Shown here: positions 1-9,588 of the stretch, piece after piece
How positions within the stretch are numbered: position 1 is the first letter of the stretch
How the letters are laid out: each line of letters starts with the position of its first letter
Assembly (NCBI GenBank): GCA_024637315.1
Contig: JAGXFH010000034.1
Coordinates: 372,001 to 436,000 of the forward strand
Source: Brevirhabdus sp.
Lineage (GTDB): Bacteria > Pseudomonadota > Alphaproteobacteria > Rhodobacterales > Rhodobacteraceae
Direction: 5' to 3'
Length of the DNA: 64,000 nt
Notes under the pieces: model-generated
Databases searched by the model: none
Told to the model about the DNA's origin: nothing
What the model saw: the letters and a program-made list of their open reading frames with translations, nothing else
Made by a program: the position numbers and the translations under genes

Positions 1-617
1 TCATCGCCAGTTCGATCGAGAACATCGCCACCGAGATCCGCCACATGCAGCGCACCGAGGTGCTGGAGGCCGAGGAGTTCTTCTCTCCCGGCCAGAAGGG
101 ATCAAGCGCCATGCCGCACAAGCGAAACCCGGTGCTGACCGAGAACCTGACCGGCCTCGCCCGCCTTGTCCGCATGGCAGTGATCCCGGCGATGGAAAAC
201 GTGGCGCTCTGGCATGAACGCGATATCAGCCATTCCAGCGTCGAGCGCAGCATCGCGCCGGATGCCACCATCACCCTCGACTTTGCCCTGAACCGGCTGG
301 CGGGCGTGATCGACAAGCTCGTCGTCTACCCCGAATCGATGCTGGCCAACATGAACAAGTTCCGGGGCCTGGTAATGAGCCAGCGGGTGCTGCTGGCGTT
401 GACCCAGGCCGGCGTCAGCCGCGAGGACGCCTATCGTCTGGTGCAACGGAACGCGATGAAGGTCTGGGAACAGGGCAAGGACTTCAAGACCGAGCTTCTG
501 GCCGATCCAGACGTCACCGCCGCCCTCACCGCCGCCGAAATCGAAGAGAAATTCGATCTCGGCTATCACACCAAACATGTCGACACGATCTTCGCCCGGG
601 TCTTTGGCGAGACCTGA
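1..617 (+). CDS. purB: Adenylosuccinate lyase, C-terminal part (5' end outside window)
   Basis: This is the 3' part of purB; the open frame runs in from before base 1. PurB makes fumarate from SAICAR and from adenylosuccinate in cytosolic purine synthesis. The visible part has the fumarase/aspartase superfamily signature GSSAMPHKRNP, which carries the flexible catalytic loop serine. It is followed by the helical C-terminal domain (WHERDISHSSVERSIAPDA; LTQAGVSREDAYRLVQRNA), both typical of PurB. About 200 residues are visible, roughly the last half of the usual 430-residue protein. The ORF-track start at base 45 is an internal methionine. Family identity is very secure. Confidence 0.95.
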   Translation, partial: IASSIENIATEIRHMQRTEVLEAEEFFSPGQKGSSAMPHKRNPVLTENLTGLARLVRMAVIPAMENVALWHERDISHSSVERSIAPDATITLDFALNRLAGVIDKLVVYPESMLANMNKFRGLVMSQRVLLALTQAGVSREDAYRLVQRNAMKVWEQGKDFKTELLADPDVTAALTAAEIEEKFDLGYHTKHVDTIFARVFGET

Positions 618-674
618 CGCTAGGGAATCGCCGGAAATCGTGTTAGTATCGCCCATCCTTGAACGGAGGTGCCC

Positions 675-836
675 ATGAAGACCCTCGCGATTCTGACAGT
701 TCTGGTGCTGGCTGCAACGCCGACGCTGGCGCGTGGAATGTGCGGCGATCACGCCGAACAAACCACCAGTTCCTGTACCGGAGGCTATGTCTGGGATACG
801 ACCGCCCAGACCTGCGTGGAAAAAGCCACCAGTTAG
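675..836 (+). CDS. Small exported protein, 53 aa, four cysteines
   Basis: Short ORF missed by the ORF track. It starts at ATG 675, preceded by GGAGGT at good spacing, and ends at TAG 834-836. The N-terminus MKTLAILTVLVLAATPTLA is a clear signal peptide with a probable cleavage site after ALA. The mature part of about 34 residues has three cysteines plus one close to the cleavage site (MCGDH, SCTGG, TCVEK), which could form disulfides in the periplasm. It lies 57 bases after purB on the same strand. No function is recognised. The ribosome binding site and secretion signal make it a credible gene. Confidence 0.65.
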   Translation: MKTLAILTVLVLAATPTLARGMCGDHAEQTTSSCTGGYVWDTTAQTCVEKATS

Positions 837-919
837 TCAGCGAGTCCGCCGACAGGTCACGGCCTGTTAACCGCTGCTGTGGCATCACCCCTCCAGACGA
901 CTTCAGAATGGAGGGTTCG

Positions 920-1981
920 GTGAGTTCGGCGCTGCCCACACAGATCAACCGCTCCGGCGGCGCGGCGTCGGCTGCGCCCGGTCCGATACGCAAACTCAGC
1001 AAACGGCAAAAAGCAGCCATCGTCGTGCGCCTGCTGATGGCCGAAGGTGCGGACCTGTCGCTTGCCGGCATGTCCGAGGCGACGCTGGCCGAACTCACCC
1101 GCCAGATGACGACGTTGCGCTATATCGACCGACCGACGCTGCAGCAGGTGATCGAAGAGTTTCTGGCAGAGATTGACGGGATCGGCCTGTCGTTCCCCGG
1201 CGGTGTAGACGAGGCGCTGTCGATCCTCGAAAGCACGATGAGTTCCGAAATGGCCACCCGGCTGCGCAAGCAGGCCGGGGTGTCGGCGCAGGGCGATCCC
1301 TGGGACCGGATCGGCGCGCTCGGCCTCGAAACGCTTCAGCCGGTCCTGGAAGAGGAAAGCGTCGAGGTCTGCGCGGTTCTCTTGTCGAAACTGAAGGTGT
1401 CGAAAGCCGCGGAACTTCTGGGCGCGCTGCCCGGCGCCCGTGCCCGTCGCATTGCCTATGCGATTTCTCTGACCGGCAATATCGCGCCGGACGTGGTACG
1501 CCGGATCGGCCTGTCGCTGGCCAGTCAGCTTGACGCGCAACCGATGAAGGCCTTCGCCGAGGGCCCTGTCGAACGGGTCGGCGCGATCCTCAACTTCTCG
1601 CCCGCCGCGACGCGCGAAGATGTGCTGGAAGGACTGCACCAGCAAGATGAAGGCTTTGCTACCGAAGTGCGACGCGCGATTTTCACCTTCGCCAATATCC
1701 CATCCCGGATCGACCCGCGCGACATCCCGAAGATCACCCGCGATGTCGACCCGGCCAAGCTCATCACCGCCCTCGCCTCGGCCAGCGGCGCGGCGGCGAA
1801 GGCAACCGAGTTCATCTTGGCGAACATGTCGCAGCGCATGGCCGGTTCGATGCGCGAAGAGATGGAGGCGCTCGGCAAGGTCAGGGATCGCGACGGCGAA
1901 GAGGCTCAGAACGCCGTCGTCGCGGTGATCCGCGACCTCGAAGAGGCCGGAGAGATCTTCCTGGTCGCCGAAGAAGACTAG
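920..1981 (+). CDS. fliG: FliG-like flagellar motor switch protein
   Basis: The product resembles the rotor protein FliG, which couples stator torque to the cytoplasmic C-ring. The N-terminal domain opens with KLSKRQKAAIVVRLLMAEGA, matching the usual KAAILLL start. The C-terminal third matches the torque domain: IFTFANIP, RDVDPAKLITAL, MSQRMAGSMREEMEALG and a final DLEEAGEIFL. The middle-domain EHPQ motif is replaced by EESVEV, so the protein is divergent. I prefer GTG 920 (353 aa) because GGAGGG lies just upstream; ATG 908 is the alternative. No other flagellar gene is in the window, so the gene stands apart from a flagellar cluster. Confidence 0.8.
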   Translation: MSSALPTQINRSGGAASAAPGPIRKLSKRQKAAIVVRLLMAEGADLSLAGMSEATLAELTRQMTTLRYIDRPTLQQVIEEFLAEIDGIGLSFPGGVDEALSILESTMSSEMATRLRKQAGVSAQGDPWDRIGALGLETLQPVLEEESVEVCAVLLSKLKVSKAAELLGALPGARARRIAYAISLTGNIAPDVVRRIGLSLASQLDAQPMKAFAEGPVERVGAILNFSPAATREDVLEGLHQQDEGFATEVRRAIFTFANIPSRIDPRDIPKITRDVDPAKLITALASASGAAAKATEFILANMSQRMAGSMREEMEALGKVRDRDGEEAQNAVVAVIRDLEEAGEIFLVAEED

Positions 1982-2033
1982 CCGGGCGCCGCGCCCACCT
2001 GGCCCGAGGCAGCGCAACGCCGCCAGATCCGCG

Positions 2034-2071
2034 GCATCATTCGTCCACAAATATCCCCGCGCGGAGCGCAA
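2034..2071. repeat. Intergenic repeat, copy 1
   Basis: A 38-base segment containing CAAATATCCCCGCGCGGAGC lies about 50 bases after the fliG stop. It matches bases 9675-9712, after acnA, at 33 of 38 positions. Both copies follow a plus-strand gene. This looks like a dispersed intergenic element of the lineage rather than coding sequence. Confidence 0.6.
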
Positions 2072-2174
2072 TCGCACGCAGTTCTGGAAGTCCTGACGAC
2101 GCAAGGCGTCTCAATTCCGCGCAAAGGGTCGGACGCTCTGGACAGCCTCCCTCGATCCACCTACCGTCTCGGTC

Positions 2175-2513
2175 ATGACCGACACCACCGGACGCCGCTG
2201 GCACGATATGGGTGGCCTCGATGCAGGCCCGCTTGATCCCGCCGAACACGATTTCGCGCTTTGGGAAAAGCGCGTCGATGCGCTGATGGTGCTGGCCTCG
2301 GCCAAGGGGCTTTTCACCGTCGACGGCTTGCGCCGCGCGCTTGAAGACATGGGCGAAGAGGCGTTCGAGTCGATGAGCTACTACGAACGCTGGATCGCCT
2401 CGGTGAACCAGAACCTGCTGGAGGCCGGCGTCTATTCGATCGAAGAACTCGGCGCCAGGATGGAGGATATCAGCAAGCGCGGCACCACCTATTCCGAGGC
2501 CGCCAATGGCTGA
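2175..2513 (+). CDS. Nitrile hydratase beta, N-terminal-type subunit (thiocyanate hydrolase beta-like)
   Basis: 112 aa matching only the N-terminal half of a nitrile hydratase beta subunit. It has RWHDMGGLDAGP near the start, a helical core and the family segment SYYERWIASVNQNLLEAGVYSIEEL. In standard nitrile hydratases this half is fused to an SH3-like half; here it stops and the SH3-like half is the next gene, overlapping by eight bases (ATGGCTGA). The same division occurs in thiocyanate hydrolase and toyocamycin nitrile hydratase, which have three subunits. It probably forms a cytosolic heteromeric complex with the two genes downstream. The family is clear; the substrate (nitrile, thiocyanate or other) is not. 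Confidence 0.85.
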   Translation: MTDTTGRRWHDMGGLDAGPLDPAEHDFALWEKRVDALMVLASAKGLFTVDGLRRALEDMGEEAFESMSYYERWIASVNQNLLEAGVYSIEELGARMEDISKRGTTYSEAANG

Positions 2514-2775
2514 CCGGGTCCGCGTCCGTGCCATGATGCCGCCCGGCCATGTCCGCACACCGGCCTATCTGCGCGGCAAGACCGGAATCATCGAACGCAG
2601 CCTCGGTGATTACCCCAACCCCGAACAACTTGCCTACCGGCAACGCGCCGAACCGCGCGCCCTCTACCGCGTCCGCTTTTCCATGGCCGAGATATGGGGC
2701 GCGGCGGCCGAGAACCCCGATGACACGCTCGATGCCGAGATTTTCGCGCATTGGCTTGAACCGCTCGAGTCCTGA
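2506..2775 (+). CDS. Nitrile hydratase beta, C-terminal SH3-like subunit (thiocyanate hydrolase alpha-like)
   Basis: 89 aa corresponding to the SH3-like barrel that ends nitrile hydratase beta chains. It has VRVRAMMPPGHVRTPAYLRG, then GIIERSLGDYPNPE, then ALYRVRFSMAEIWG. It overlaps the upstream gene by eight bases and lies one base before the alpha subunit, so translation is probably coupled. This fold is also used by nitrile hydratase activator/metallochaperone proteins. With no separate activator in the operon, this subunit might also help metal insertion; that is inference. The short length fits a stand-alone subunit. Confidence 0.85.
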   Translation: MADRVRVRAMMPPGHVRTPAYLRGKTGIIERSLGDYPNPEQLAYRQRAEPRALYRVRFSMAEIWGAAAENPDDTLDAEIFAHWLEPLES

Positions 2776-2776
2776 C

Positions 2777-3415
2777 ATGCCGCACGACCACACCGACCAC
2801 CTGTCGCCTTCTGGCCACCCTTTCCGGCCCGACAATGACGCCCCGCTGACCTACTGGCAGGTGATGGAGATCGCGATACGCGAGTTGCTGATCGTGAAAG
2901 GGATAACCACGGCGGCCGACATCGCCGCCCAGATCGACGCGATGGATGCGCGATCTCCGGCGGATGGCGCAAAGGTCGTCGCCCGCGCCTGGACCGACCC
3001 CGCGTTCAAGGCGCGCCTGCTGGCGAATGGCTCCGCAGCCAGCCGCGAGATGGGGTTCGATATCGGCAGCCTGCGGCTGATCGTCGTCGAGAACACGCCC
3101 CATATCCACAATGTCATCGTCTGCACGCTCTGCTCGTGTTACCCACGCAACCTTCTGGGCCTGCCGCCCGACTGGTACAAGACCCGCGCCTACCGCAGCC
3201 GTGTGGTGCGCGAGCCGCGCAAGGTGCTGGCGGAATTCGGCCTCGTCCTGCCCGATAGCATCCGCATCCGGGTGCACGATTCGACCGCCGACATGCGCTA
3301 CATCGTGCTGCCCGCCAGGCCCGCAGGCACCGAAGAGCTGAGCGAAGCAGACCTCGCCGACCTCGTCACCCGCGATGCGATGATCGGAACCGGATTGCCG
3401 AAAGCCGCCGCGTGA
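2777..3415 (+). CDS. Nitrile hydratase alpha / thiocyanate hydrolase gamma-like catalytic subunit
   Basis: 212 aa metal-binding subunit. The site is VCTLCSC at residues 115-121 (Cys116, Cys119, Ser120, Cys121), where two cysteines are normally oxidised to sulfinic and sulfenic acids. Thr117 (CTLC) points to the cobalt type; iron enzymes usually have CSLC. The following segment YPRNLLGLPPDWYK has Arg where ordinary nitrile hydratases have Trp (YPW). The C-terminal block (VREPRKVLAEFG, IRVHDSTADMRYIVLPARP, LVTRDAMIG) is intact. The enzyme would hydrate a nitrile or hydrolyse thiocyanate. The gene order (beta-N, beta-C, alpha) matches the scnB-scnA-scnC arrangement. Confidence 0.88.
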   Translation: MPHDHTDHLSPSGHPFRPDNDAPLTYWQVMEIAIRELLIVKGITTAADIAAQIDAMDARSPADGAKVVARAWTDPAFKARLLANGSAASREMGFDIGSLRLIVVENTPHIHNVIVCTLCSCYPRNLLGLPPDWYKTRAYRSRVVREPRKVLAEFGLVLPDSIRIRVHDSTADMRYIVLPARPAGTEELSEADLADLVTRDAMIGTGLPKAAA

Positions 3416-4296
3416 CATGGTTCCGCGGACTGGCGCCTACGGCACAGGGCATCGTGATGATGGTCATCGCGGTCGCCACATTCTCGGCGATGGACGCCAT
3501 CGCCAAGGGTCTTGCACAACGCTACGAGCCGATGCAGGTGCTCTGGGCGCGCTATACCTGCCATACGGTGGTCGTGTTCGTGTGGTTTGCGCCGCGCCTC
3601 GCCGCGCTCTTGCGCACCCGGCATCTCGGCGTTCAGATGCTGCGCTCGGCCTTCGTCTTCGGGGCGACATTCTGTTTTTTCACCTCGATCGCGCATATCG
3701 GGCTGGCGCAGGCGACGGCGGTGTTCGACACCAATCCCCTGCTGGTGACGCTTCTGGCGTTTCTGGTACTGAAGGAACGCGCCGGCCCGCGCCGGATCTT
3801 CGGCATCATGGCCGGGCTTGTCGGTGCGCTGATCATCATCCGCCCGGGCACGGAAATCTTCTCGCTCTATGCCGTGCTGCCGCTTCTGGGGGCCTGTTTC
3901 TATGCGTCCTATGTCATCTCGACCCGCCTGCTGGGACGTGATGAAAACAGCCTTACAAGCCTTCTCTACACCACGCTGATCGGCACGCTGGTCGCAACGA
4001 TCCTGGTGCCGGGCGTCTGGCGGACCCCGACCCTGCCCGATGCCGCGCTGATGCTGGCGCTGGGGGTGATCGGCGGCACCGGCCAGTATTTCTTGATCCG
4101 CGCCTTCACCCTGTCAGAGGCCGCGGTCGTCGCCCCCTTCACCTATGTCGGGCTGATCTTCGCTGTCGTGTTCGGCTACCTGTTCTTCGATGAGATCCCG
4201 GACGCCATGACCTTCCTCGGCGCGCTTGTGATCGTCGGGTCGGGGCTTTATGTCTGGCATCGTGAACGGCAGCAGCAAAGCGAACAGCCCGCCTGA
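3412..4296 (+). CDS. EamA-family (DMT superfamily) inner-membrane transporter
   Basis: 294 aa with about ten hydrophobic segments arranged as two EamA repeats. The first begins at GIVMMVIAVATFSAMDAIAKG; the second contains GVIGGTGQYFLIRAFTLSEAAVVAPFTYVGLIF. The start is GTG 3412, overlapping the alpha-subunit stop as GTGA, which ties it to the nitrile hydratase-like operon. EamA proteins are mostly metabolite exporters; here the substrate may be the substrate or product of the upstream enzyme (inference from coupling). ATG 3417 is in another frame and is rejected. Confidence 0.85.
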   Translation: MTWFRGLAPTAQGIVMMVIAVATFSAMDAIAKGLAQRYEPMQVLWARYTCHTVVVFVWFAPRLAALLRTRHLGVQMLRSAFVFGATFCFFTSIAHIGLAQATAVFDTNPLLVTLLAFLVLKERAGPRRIFGIMAGLVGALIIIRPGTEIFSLYAVLPLLGACFYASYVISTRLLGRDENSLTSLLYTTLIGTLVATILVPGVWRTPTLPDAALMLALGVIGGTGQYFLIRAFTLSEAAVVAPFTYVGLIFAVVFGYLFFDEIPDAMTFLGALVIVGSGLYVWHRERQQQSEQPA

Positions 4297-5214
4297 ATGA
4301 CCTCCAGCGCCGAAGACCCCGAAGGCCGGAGCCTGACCGACTGGGCCACCGACCGCGCCCTGCGGTCGGTCATCTCGGCGTTGCGGCTACTGCCATATGA
4401 CCGGCGGGTGCCGGCGATGGGCTGGTTCACCCGCCGGGTGATCGCGCCGCTGGCGGGCTATAACCGCCGCTCGGCGATCAATCTGAGCTATGTCTTTCCC
4501 GACATGGACCGCGCCGAACGCGCCGCCATTATCGCCCAGGTCGCCGACAATGCCGGCCGCACGATGATCGAGAACTATTCACCCGACGAATTCCTGGCGC
4601 GCAGCGCCAATGCCGAGATCACCGGCCCCGGCTTTGCCGCATTGCAAGAGGCGCAAGCCGAAAAGCGCCCGGTGATCCTGGTGACCGGCCATTTCGGCAA
4701 CTACGAGGCGCCCCGAGCCGCACTCGTCGGGCTTGGCTACGCAGTCGGCGGGCTCTACCGCCCGGCCGCCAACAAGTTCTTCAACGATCATTATGCCGGT
4801 ACCTTCACCGCGTATGGTGGACCGATCTTCGCGCAGGGCCGGCGCGGTACCGCGGGATTCGTCCGCCACCTCAAGGCCGGCGGCATATTGGTGTTGCTGT
4901 TCGACCAACATGTCAGCAAGGGCAAGCGGATGAAATTCCTCGGCCGTCCCGCCCGCACAGCGCTCTCGGCCAGCGAGCTGGCGCTGCGCTACGGCGCCGA
5001 GCTGATCCCGTTCTATGGCACCCGCCGCGCCGATGGCATGAGCTTCGACATCGACCTCGAGGCGCCGATCCCGCACAGCGATCCGGTGACCATGACCGCC
5101 GCGATGAATGCAAGCCTCGAGGCGCGCATCCTTGCCGATCCCGGCCAGTGGTTCTGGATTCACCGCCGCTGGAAGGTCGGCGAGATGGGCAAGATGCTGA
5201 AGGGGAAACGCTGA
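4297..5214 (+). CDS. LpxL/HtrB-type lysophospholipid/lipid A acyltransferase
   Basis: 305 aa member of the LpxL/HtrB family, which moves an acyl chain onto lipid A or a related acceptor at the inner membrane. The HX4E catalytic motif is HFGNYE at residues 132-137, in the context RPVILVTGHFGNYEAPRAAL. Other family landmarks are NLSYVFPDM, GGILVLLFDQHVSKG and the C-terminal DPGQWFWIHRRWK. The ATG follows the transporter stop with no gap, so it is cotranscribed. A metabolic link to the nitrile hydratase genes is not evident. The acceptor cannot be decided from sequence. Confidence 0.88.
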   Translation: MTSSAEDPEGRSLTDWATDRALRSVISALRLLPYDRRVPAMGWFTRRVIAPLAGYNRRSAINLSYVFPDMDRAERAAIIAQVADNAGRTMIENYSPDEFLARSANAEITGPGFAALQEAQAEKRPVILVTGHFGNYEAPRAALVGLGYAVGGLYRPAANKFFNDHYAGTFTAYGGPIFAQGRRGTAGFVRHLKAGGILVLLFDQHVSKGKRMKFLGRPARTALSASELALRYGAELIPFYGTRRADGMSFDIDLEAPIPHSDPVTMTAAMNASLEARILADPGQWFWIHRRWKVGEMGKMLKGKR

Positions 5215-5267
5215 AAAACCGTTGGATGCAGATTTGAAACTTCATTGACAGGCCATAAACCGGGACG

Positions 5268-5843
5268 ATGCAAAAGACAGAGCGCGAAAAGATGCAAGCA
5301 GGCCGCTGGTACACCTGCATCGACCCAGAGCTTGAGGACCTGCGCAACCGCGCCCGCCACGCGGTGCACCAGCACAACAGCCTGCCGCCGGACCGGCGTG
5401 GCAGAATCGCCGCCGAACTTGCGCAGCTTTTCGCGGCCGTGGCAGAGGATGCCTATATCGAGGCGCCGTTCCACTGCGCCTACGGGTTCAACATCACTCT
5501 GGAGCGGGGCGTCTACCTCAATGCCGGCTGCACGATCCTCGATACAGCGCCGGTTCGAATCGGCGCCGGCTCGCTGCTTGGTCCTTCTGTGCAGATCTAC
5601 TGCGCCGAGCATCACAAGGACCCGGCGAAGCGAATCGTGGGTCTGGAACGGGCGCGGACCGTAACCGTCGGTGATCGGGTCTGGATCGGGGGCGGCGCGA
5701 TCCTTTTGCCCGGCATCAGCATCGGGGACAGGGCAATCATCGGTGCGGGAAGCGTCGTCACGCGCGATGTTCCCGCCGGGGCGACTGTGGCGGGCAACCC
5801 GGCGCGGAGTCTGCCGCAGGGCCAACCGACCGGCGCCGGGTGA
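5268..5843 (+). CDS. Hexapeptide-repeat sugar O-acetyltransferase (Maa/NodL/LacA family)
   Basis: 191 aa. The N-terminal maltose-acetyltransferase-like region (EREKMQAGRWYTCIDPELEDLR) precedes a left-handed beta-helix of hexapeptide repeats, such as GVYLNAGCTILDTAPVRIGA and VWIGGGAILLPGISIGDRAI. The proposed catalytic histidine of the family is in YCAEHHKDP. Such enzymes transfer acetyl from acetyl-CoA to a sugar hydroxyl in the cytosol. The gene starts 53 bases after the acyltransferase on the same strand and converges with the DUF1223 gene. ATG 5292 is a possible internal start. Confidence 0.85.
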   Translation: MQKTEREKMQAGRWYTCIDPELEDLRNRARHAVHQHNSLPPDRRGRIAAELAQLFAAVAEDAYIEAPFHCAYGFNITLERGVYLNAGCTILDTAPVRIGAGSLLGPSVQIYCAEHHKDPAKRIVGLERARTVTVGDRVWIGGGAILLPGISIGDRAIIGAGSVVTRDVPAGATVAGNPARSLPQGQPTGAG

Positions 5844-5858
5844 CGGGCCTGAGCGCCG

Positions 5859-6593
5859 CTACTTCATCTGCGCCGCCGCCAGAATCGGCCCGTGCCCCGA
5901 AGTCTGCACCAGAACCGCGACCGGCGAGGTATCGCCGCGCAAGTCGATCGACAGTTTCAGCGCCTCTTTGCCATCCCATTTGGCGACCGGATCCCACGAG
6001 GTCACGATGTTGGCATAGGAAATCTTCCGGCCGGCATTCTCGCCGCGCCTGATCTCGACTTCGCGCAAGGGATCGAACCGCACCAGATGCACCATCATCT
6101 TCTCGGGCAATGCGGCAGAGCCGTTGCGCTCGGCGATCACGGCCAGTACGTCACCATCCCGCGTCAGCCGCATGGTGACTGCCGGCTTCGCCCGATAATG
6201 CGCACTGATCAGTTCGGCCAGCTTCATCGGCTTGGCGCCGACCAGATGGTCACGGCCGCCGACGATCATCTGCGGGGTATAGACCATCCCCTTCCCGGCC
6301 CGGCGCGCATAGGCGCGCTGTCGTTGGGCATGGTCGGGGCTGCCGAACTGATCCTTCCAGCCCAGATAGTCCCAGTAATCGACGTGCAGCGCCAGCGCGA
6401 TCACGTCATCGCGCTTCGCCAGTTCGGCCAAGATCGCATCGGCCGGAGGGCAGGACGAGCATCCCTGCGAGGTGTACAGTTCGACGACGACGGGCTGAGA
6501 CTGCGCCGACGCGGCACTTGGCGCAGCGATCGCGAAGGCCAGCGAACACGCCACCGCGAAAGCCATCGAAATGGCTGCAAGAGATGCTTTCAT
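5859..6593 (-). CDS. DUF1223 thioredoxin-like exported protein
   Basis: 244 aa. After the signal peptide (MKASLAAISMAFAVACSLAF to ASAQ) comes VVVELYTSQGCSSCPPADAI, the DUF1223 hallmark. CSSCP resembles a thioredoxin CXXC site, and HVDYWDYLGWKDQF follows, as is usual for the family. It is probably periplasmic; its biochemical role is unknown. I start at 6593 because that methionine gives a standard signal peptide and has GGACGG just upstream. The track's 6659 start would add a non-signal leader. It converges with the acetyltransferase and diverges from acnA. Confidence 0.85.
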   Translation of the reverse strand: MKASLAAISMAFAVACSLAFAIAAPSAASAQSQPVVVELYTSQGCSSCPPADAILAELAKRDDVIALALHVDYWDYLGWKDQFGSPDHAQRQRAYARRAGKGMVYTPQMIVGGRDHLVGAKPMKLAELISAHYRAKPAVTMRLTRDGDVLAVIAERNGSAALPEKMMVHLVRFDPLREVEIRRGENAGRKISYANIVTSWDPVAKWDGKEALKLSIDLRGDTSPVAVLVQTSGHGPILAAAQMK

Positions 6594-6816
6594 TGACCGT
6601 CCTTTATCCGTCCCCATCATGTTCCTAGACCACTCGCGCCGCGACTGCCAATCAACCAATTGCGATAAGTCCGTAATATCACGGTTCTGTCACTCCGGAA
6701 TTGCAGAACGGTACACAATGGTATACAGTTATTTCGTCACCCCCCTTGAATGCCGCGCGCCATTGCGGCAAACCCTGATCGACATGAACCCTCGCCCAAA
6801 CTGAAGGGACCCCCAG

Positions 6817-9588
<2,772 letters not shown>

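Follow-up and report, generated by a model that had tools for sequence, protein, structure and literature searches.

Three adjacent genes in the window (the whole 64,000-nucleotide stretch of Brevirhabdus sp. DNA analysed here) probably encode a cobalt nitrile hydratase that, like AnhDEA of Streptomyces canus, has three subunits and no activator and that would hydrate a neutral nitrile, while the EamA-family transporter gene behind them is a mere neighbour; we put the probability of this reading at about 0.78. The three genes and the EamA gene are all intact, with Pfam matches well above cut-off. They and their flanking genes are as follows:

1082 to 1981, + strand: FliG-like gene (PF01706/PF14842/PF14841), left flank of the cassette; it belongs to the host block and is the same flank found at empty sites
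2175 to 2513, + strand: βN gene, 112 aa, N-terminal half of nitrile hydratase β (PF21006, 70 bits, E = 2e-19), containing the SYYERW motif and, within LRR, one catalytic Arg
2506 to 2775, + strand: βC gene, 89 aa, C-terminal SH3-like half of β (PF02211, 80 bits, E = 1e-22), whose GHVR supplies the other catalytic Arg, the counterpart of β157 in the 1ire alignment
2777 to 3415, + strand: α gene, 212 aa, metal-binding subunit (PF02979, 270 bits, E = 8e-81)
3412 to 4296, + strand: EamA-family transporter gene with a GTG start (PF00892, 100 bits)
4297 to 5214, + strand: LpxL/HtrB-like acyltransferase gene (PF03279), part of the conserved host block and not of the enzyme
5268 to 5843: maltose-acetyltransferase-like gene, an extra in the window's version of the block

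The βN and βC genes overlap by 8 bp (ATGGCTGA), a single base separates the βC stop from the α start (TGACATG) and the α stop overlaps the GTG start of the EamA gene in GTGA. The gene run goes on past EamA, the acyltransferase ATG beginning at the base after the EamA stop. In the α claw sequence (VCTLCSCYPRNLL), VCTLCSC is followed by YPRNLL. The initial annotation had described a β subunit encoded by two overlapping genes, an α gene with VCTLCSC, Arg in place of Trp after the claw and a GTGA junction with EamA, and all of these features are borne out by the open reading frames, Pfam matches and sequence. As β is one chain in most nitrile hydratases, the split might be put down to a frameshift or sequencing error in a decaying, non-functional enzyme. 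This is hardly conceivable, since every relative would have to carry an identical error: the same split was found at 127 loci across several phyla, every one of which keeps both catalytic Arg residues, and gene order is conserved.

Window α scored 255.6 bits against the curated nitrile hydratase α model TIGR01323 (cut-off 249.85) and so passed it. The window proteins closely resemble chains of known structure, and βN and βC each align on their own with solved β chains. In this alignment both claw-binding β arginines are present, one in the LRR of βN and the other in the GHVR of βC. Both are invariant in 127/127 split homologues, among which the YY-x-x-W motif is also largely kept. The role of the β arginines in holding the oxidised claw is established for the nitrile hydratase family. 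In the window enzyme, the usual β chain would be made as two polypeptides, βN and βC, each giving one of the two arginines that grip the oxidised claw. From its motif, the CTLCSC claw of α is predicted to hold Co(III), with two Cys expected to be oxidised, and a neutral nitrile would be hydrated on the metal to the amide. The complex is likely to assemble as (α-βN-βC)2.

Two known enzymes have the same build, which makes cobalt-dependent hydration of a neutral nitrile without an activator the most likely activity. In S. canus, anhD-anhE-anhA encode two β partial peptides followed by α, with no activator (PMC7329996). This three-subunit enzyme hydrates acetamiprid and takes up cobalt directly under reducing conditions, with AnhD as metal and swap chaperone (PMC7329996). 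By its published description it resembles the window system in the βN-βC-α gene run, the cobalt type and the lack of an activator gene in the genome; it differs in coming from another organism group, and of the two only AnhDEA has known neonicotinoid activity. The subunits of toyocamycin nitrile hydratase, which forms an (αβγ)2 hexamer, have masses of 21.2, 10 and 11.4 kDa (PMC8574189). ToyJKL is thus likewise a nitrile hydratase of three subunits of about the sizes in the window (PMC8574189, PMC12648386), but its genes lie within an antibiotic cluster, whereas no biosynthetic genes adjoin the cassette of the window.

The genome (3.87 Mb, 99.9% complete) was searched with profiles in its entirety and contains a single α, a single βC and a single βN/activator-type domain. 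No fused β and no second nitrile hydratase α were found in the whole genome. The possibility raised initially, that a fused β elsewhere is the real partner of α, is therefore not borne out and the three-subunit reading survives. The same search with the PF21006 profile, which stands for βN and activator-type domains, gave no activator gene anywhere in the genome, its sole match being βN itself; the absence of an activator, initially noted for the window, thus holds for the whole genome. Because there is no activator gene, cobalt loading is probably direct, as in S. canus AnhDEA, one of the β half-subunits serving as its chaperone and swap partner. A His-rich α N-terminus was considered as a replacement for the activator and rejected, fused enzymes being nearly as His-rich as split ones (on average 4.9 vs 5.5 His among the 25 N-terminal residues of α).

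The three-gene layout recurs widely. The family scan covered 199 genomes of the window's family, one per genus, and 105 of these had an α above the family cut-off. Among the α loci fetched, 34 were split (βN-βC-α), 72 fused and one undecided. The βN-βC-α layout at 33 other loci of the family scan, as well as in several other phyla, shows that it is not due to chance. The three-subunit cobalt nitrile hydratase is a known, little-studied form that is common in marine bacteria, including marine Rhodobacteraceae.

Of the 34 split loci, 32 have Arg after CTLCSCYP, compared with none of the 72 fused loci (p about 4e-25, which is overstated as the genomes are related). A wider set, picked by similarity to the split enzymes, comprised Pseudomonadota, Actinomycetota, SAR324, Chloroflexota and one cyanobacterial plasmid; here, too, Arg or Lys after YP accompanies a split β. 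In the initial annotation the Arg had been read as pointing to a specialised substrate. Almost all split-β enzymes, from several phyla and including thiocyanate hydrolase, normally have Arg (or Lys) here, and comparison of these sequences thus indicates that the residue marks the split lineage and not the substrate; this part of the proposal is not supported. As a clade-level marker it is useful. A number of fused-β loci have Phe, Leu or His instead of Trp after YP (L051, L052, L055, L059, L061-L065, L067, L068, L106, L107, L134 and L138).

Several loci vary on the basic arrangement. In L075 and L091 a gap of about 450-500 bp separates βN from βC, and that of L075 holds a possible small gene. 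In L093, L103, L144 and L156 a small protein, which we take to be a DUF442/rhodanese-like phosphatase from its appearance, is encoded directly upstream of βN, about 1.2 kb upstream of α. On Planktothrix agardhii plasmid p1 (L224:2439-5624), βN-βC-α lies right behind asnB, GST, NADAR and TauD/TfdA genes and resembles a biosynthetic cluster. Seven split enzymes (L226, L227, L228, L191, L194, L206 and L219) are ordered βC-α-βN and form one tree group (support 93); those on annotated plasmids are near cobalt transporters, and L227 is also near an aquaporin.

An α tree of 74 rows was built with the Arg column left out and with P. thermophila, P. putida and Bacillus enzymes as fused references. One branch (100/99) divides the fused-β nitrile hydratases from the split enzymes together with thiocyanate hydrolase γ, and a tree of βN plus βC, in which window β was represented by near relatives, gave the same division with support of 100/100. 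An AU test on the α tree did not reject a grouping of thiocyanate hydrolase with the fused enzymes (p = 0.25). Window α clusters with other Rhodobacteraceae split α subunits (100/95) and lies outside the fused-β clade; the α-subunit tree proposed in the initial annotation thus does not nest it among fused-β enzymes. Of Streptomyces three-subunit enzymes, the tree includes the α subunits of two others than AnhA and ToyJ (L198 and L225, with AnhDEA-like gene order and YPR); both are placed on the split side. Fused-β cobalt nitrile hydratases (PDB 3qxe, 1ire and 2dpp, and the α-β-activator operons of the family) share the domain families, claw, catalytic arginines and tyrosine with the window enzyme, but they have a single β chain, usually an activator and Trp or Phe after YP, and form a fully supported branch apart. 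One exception, L119 (G454:C21:7927-8463), is split in the order α-βN-βC with Trp after YP and sits on the fused side. Judged by this placement it is an independent split, so β architecture has changed at least twice.

Thiocyanate hydrolase ScnBAC (PDB 2dd4) has a split β and the cobalt claw CTLCSCYPR with Arg γ136, and in both the α and the β tree it falls on the window enzyme's side of the division. By gene layout and trees, the initial description of a three-subunit cobalt-type enzyme akin to thiocyanate hydrolase in architecture and sequence is therefore sound. Window α also has YPR, its Arg124 being the counterpart of ScnC γArg136 in the alignment, and in an AU test a position of thiocyanate hydrolase as sister of the window group was not rejected (p = 0.37). 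These features could be explained if the window enzyme were a thiocyanate hydrolase (yielding COS and ammonia from thiocyanate) that had diverged from those described. This is very unlikely. Window α scored 214.2 bits against the curated ScnC model TIGR03887, 77 bits short of the cut-off of 291.45. It is also without the γ insertion of roughly 10 residues before the claw, for which 16-18 of 18 positions are filled in the three ScnC rows and only 6 in window α. The ScnB Arg that precedes the catalytic Arg is Leu in window βN, and the ScnA Tyr is His (GHVR) in window βC. Arg at γ136 is not diagnostic of thiocyanate hydrolase, as it is common to nearly the whole split lineage; in PDB 3vyg this position carries Trp, that is, it has been swapped in a solved variant. 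The known thiocyanate hydrolase operon includes an activator (PMC7193024), whereas none was found in the window genome. Since the enzyme fails the curated cut-off and has neither the γ insertion nor the ScnB and ScnA signature residues, its sequence argues firmly that it is not a thiocyanate hydrolase, and thiocyanate as substrate, proposed initially, loses its basis. No thiocyanate hydrolase above the cut-off of the curated model was found in 399 Pseudomonadota genomes or in 245 genomes of one order; genes annotated as scnC on plasmids took their place in the comparison.

On plasmids of Roseomonas marmotae (L222:5086-6735) and Azospirillum ramasamyi (L223:5027-6669), scnC-annotated genes lie behind a gene for one protein of roughly 283 aa. 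In R. marmotae the first half of this protein matches ScnB and the second half ScnA, making it a thiocyanate hydrolase with fused small subunits. Both loci lie near CbtA/CbtB or HupE and TauE genes.

The chromosomal setting bears on the role of EamA. Window positions 45-9588 are a conserved Rhodobacteraceae block of purB, FliG-like, acyltransferase, DUF1223 and acnA genes around the cassette. Rhodobacteraceae cassettes are mostly found in this one block, in the order purB, FliG-like, cassette, an optional EamA, acyltransferase, DUF1223 and acnA. The block exists without the cassette in relatives, and in L260, L261 and L264 the FliG-like gene is 106-120 bp from EamA or the acyltransferase. The cassette is thus an islet, present in some genomes and absent from others, within a chromosomal block that is itself conserved. 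EamA follows α at 15 of the 34 split loci, Thalassovita and Seohaeicola being among the relatives that carry both, and is missing at 19; of 51 relatives that lack nitrile hydratase altogether, 14 also have it next to this acyltransferase gene, and its association with the cassette is not significant (p = 0.16). Its place beside the acyltransferase in such relatives indicates that EamA is not specific to the cassette. It is a resident of the block and a neighbour of the enzyme, not the dedicated transporter that the initial annotation had called the operon's own. The GTGA overlap could nevertheless bring co-translation and a functional link in the window strain.

That overlap, the location of the cassette mostly at a single chromosomal site and the precedent of toyocamycin nitrile hydratase, which makes such a role possible for a three-subunit enzyme (PMC12648386), would suit a nitrile hydratase devoted to a single physiological nitrile, such as a modified nucleobase or other internal metabolite, whose substrate or product EamA would move. 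This is unlikely given the distribution of EamA, which occurs without the cassette and is absent from over half of the cassette loci, and neither the 65 Rhodobacteraceae loci examined nor the 47 split loci from elsewhere showed a recurring biosynthetic or partner gene. Outside the Rhodobacteraceae the neighbours differ: in Rhizobium and Streptomyces they include genes for aquaporin and cobalt transporters. A three-subunit nitrile hydratase with EamA as neighbour remains the preferred reading.

More broadly, and tentatively, the split-β, Arg-after-claw enzymes may be a separate, old lineage of the superfamily with activator-free cobalt maturation and an unrecognised physiological role, of which thiocyanate hydrolase would be a specialised offshoot. 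If true, the window cassette would represent a form present in about one in six of the genera sampled from its family. Three-subunit, activator-free nitrile hydratases have been described from few organisms in the literature surveyed; they prove to be a broad lineage that is frequent in marine Rhodobacteraceae, shares its side of the tree with thiocyanate hydrolase and is recognisable by one marker residue, which has already been swapped in solved structures. The lineage would offer many natural variants for probing both the Arg/Trp position and activator-free cobalt loading.
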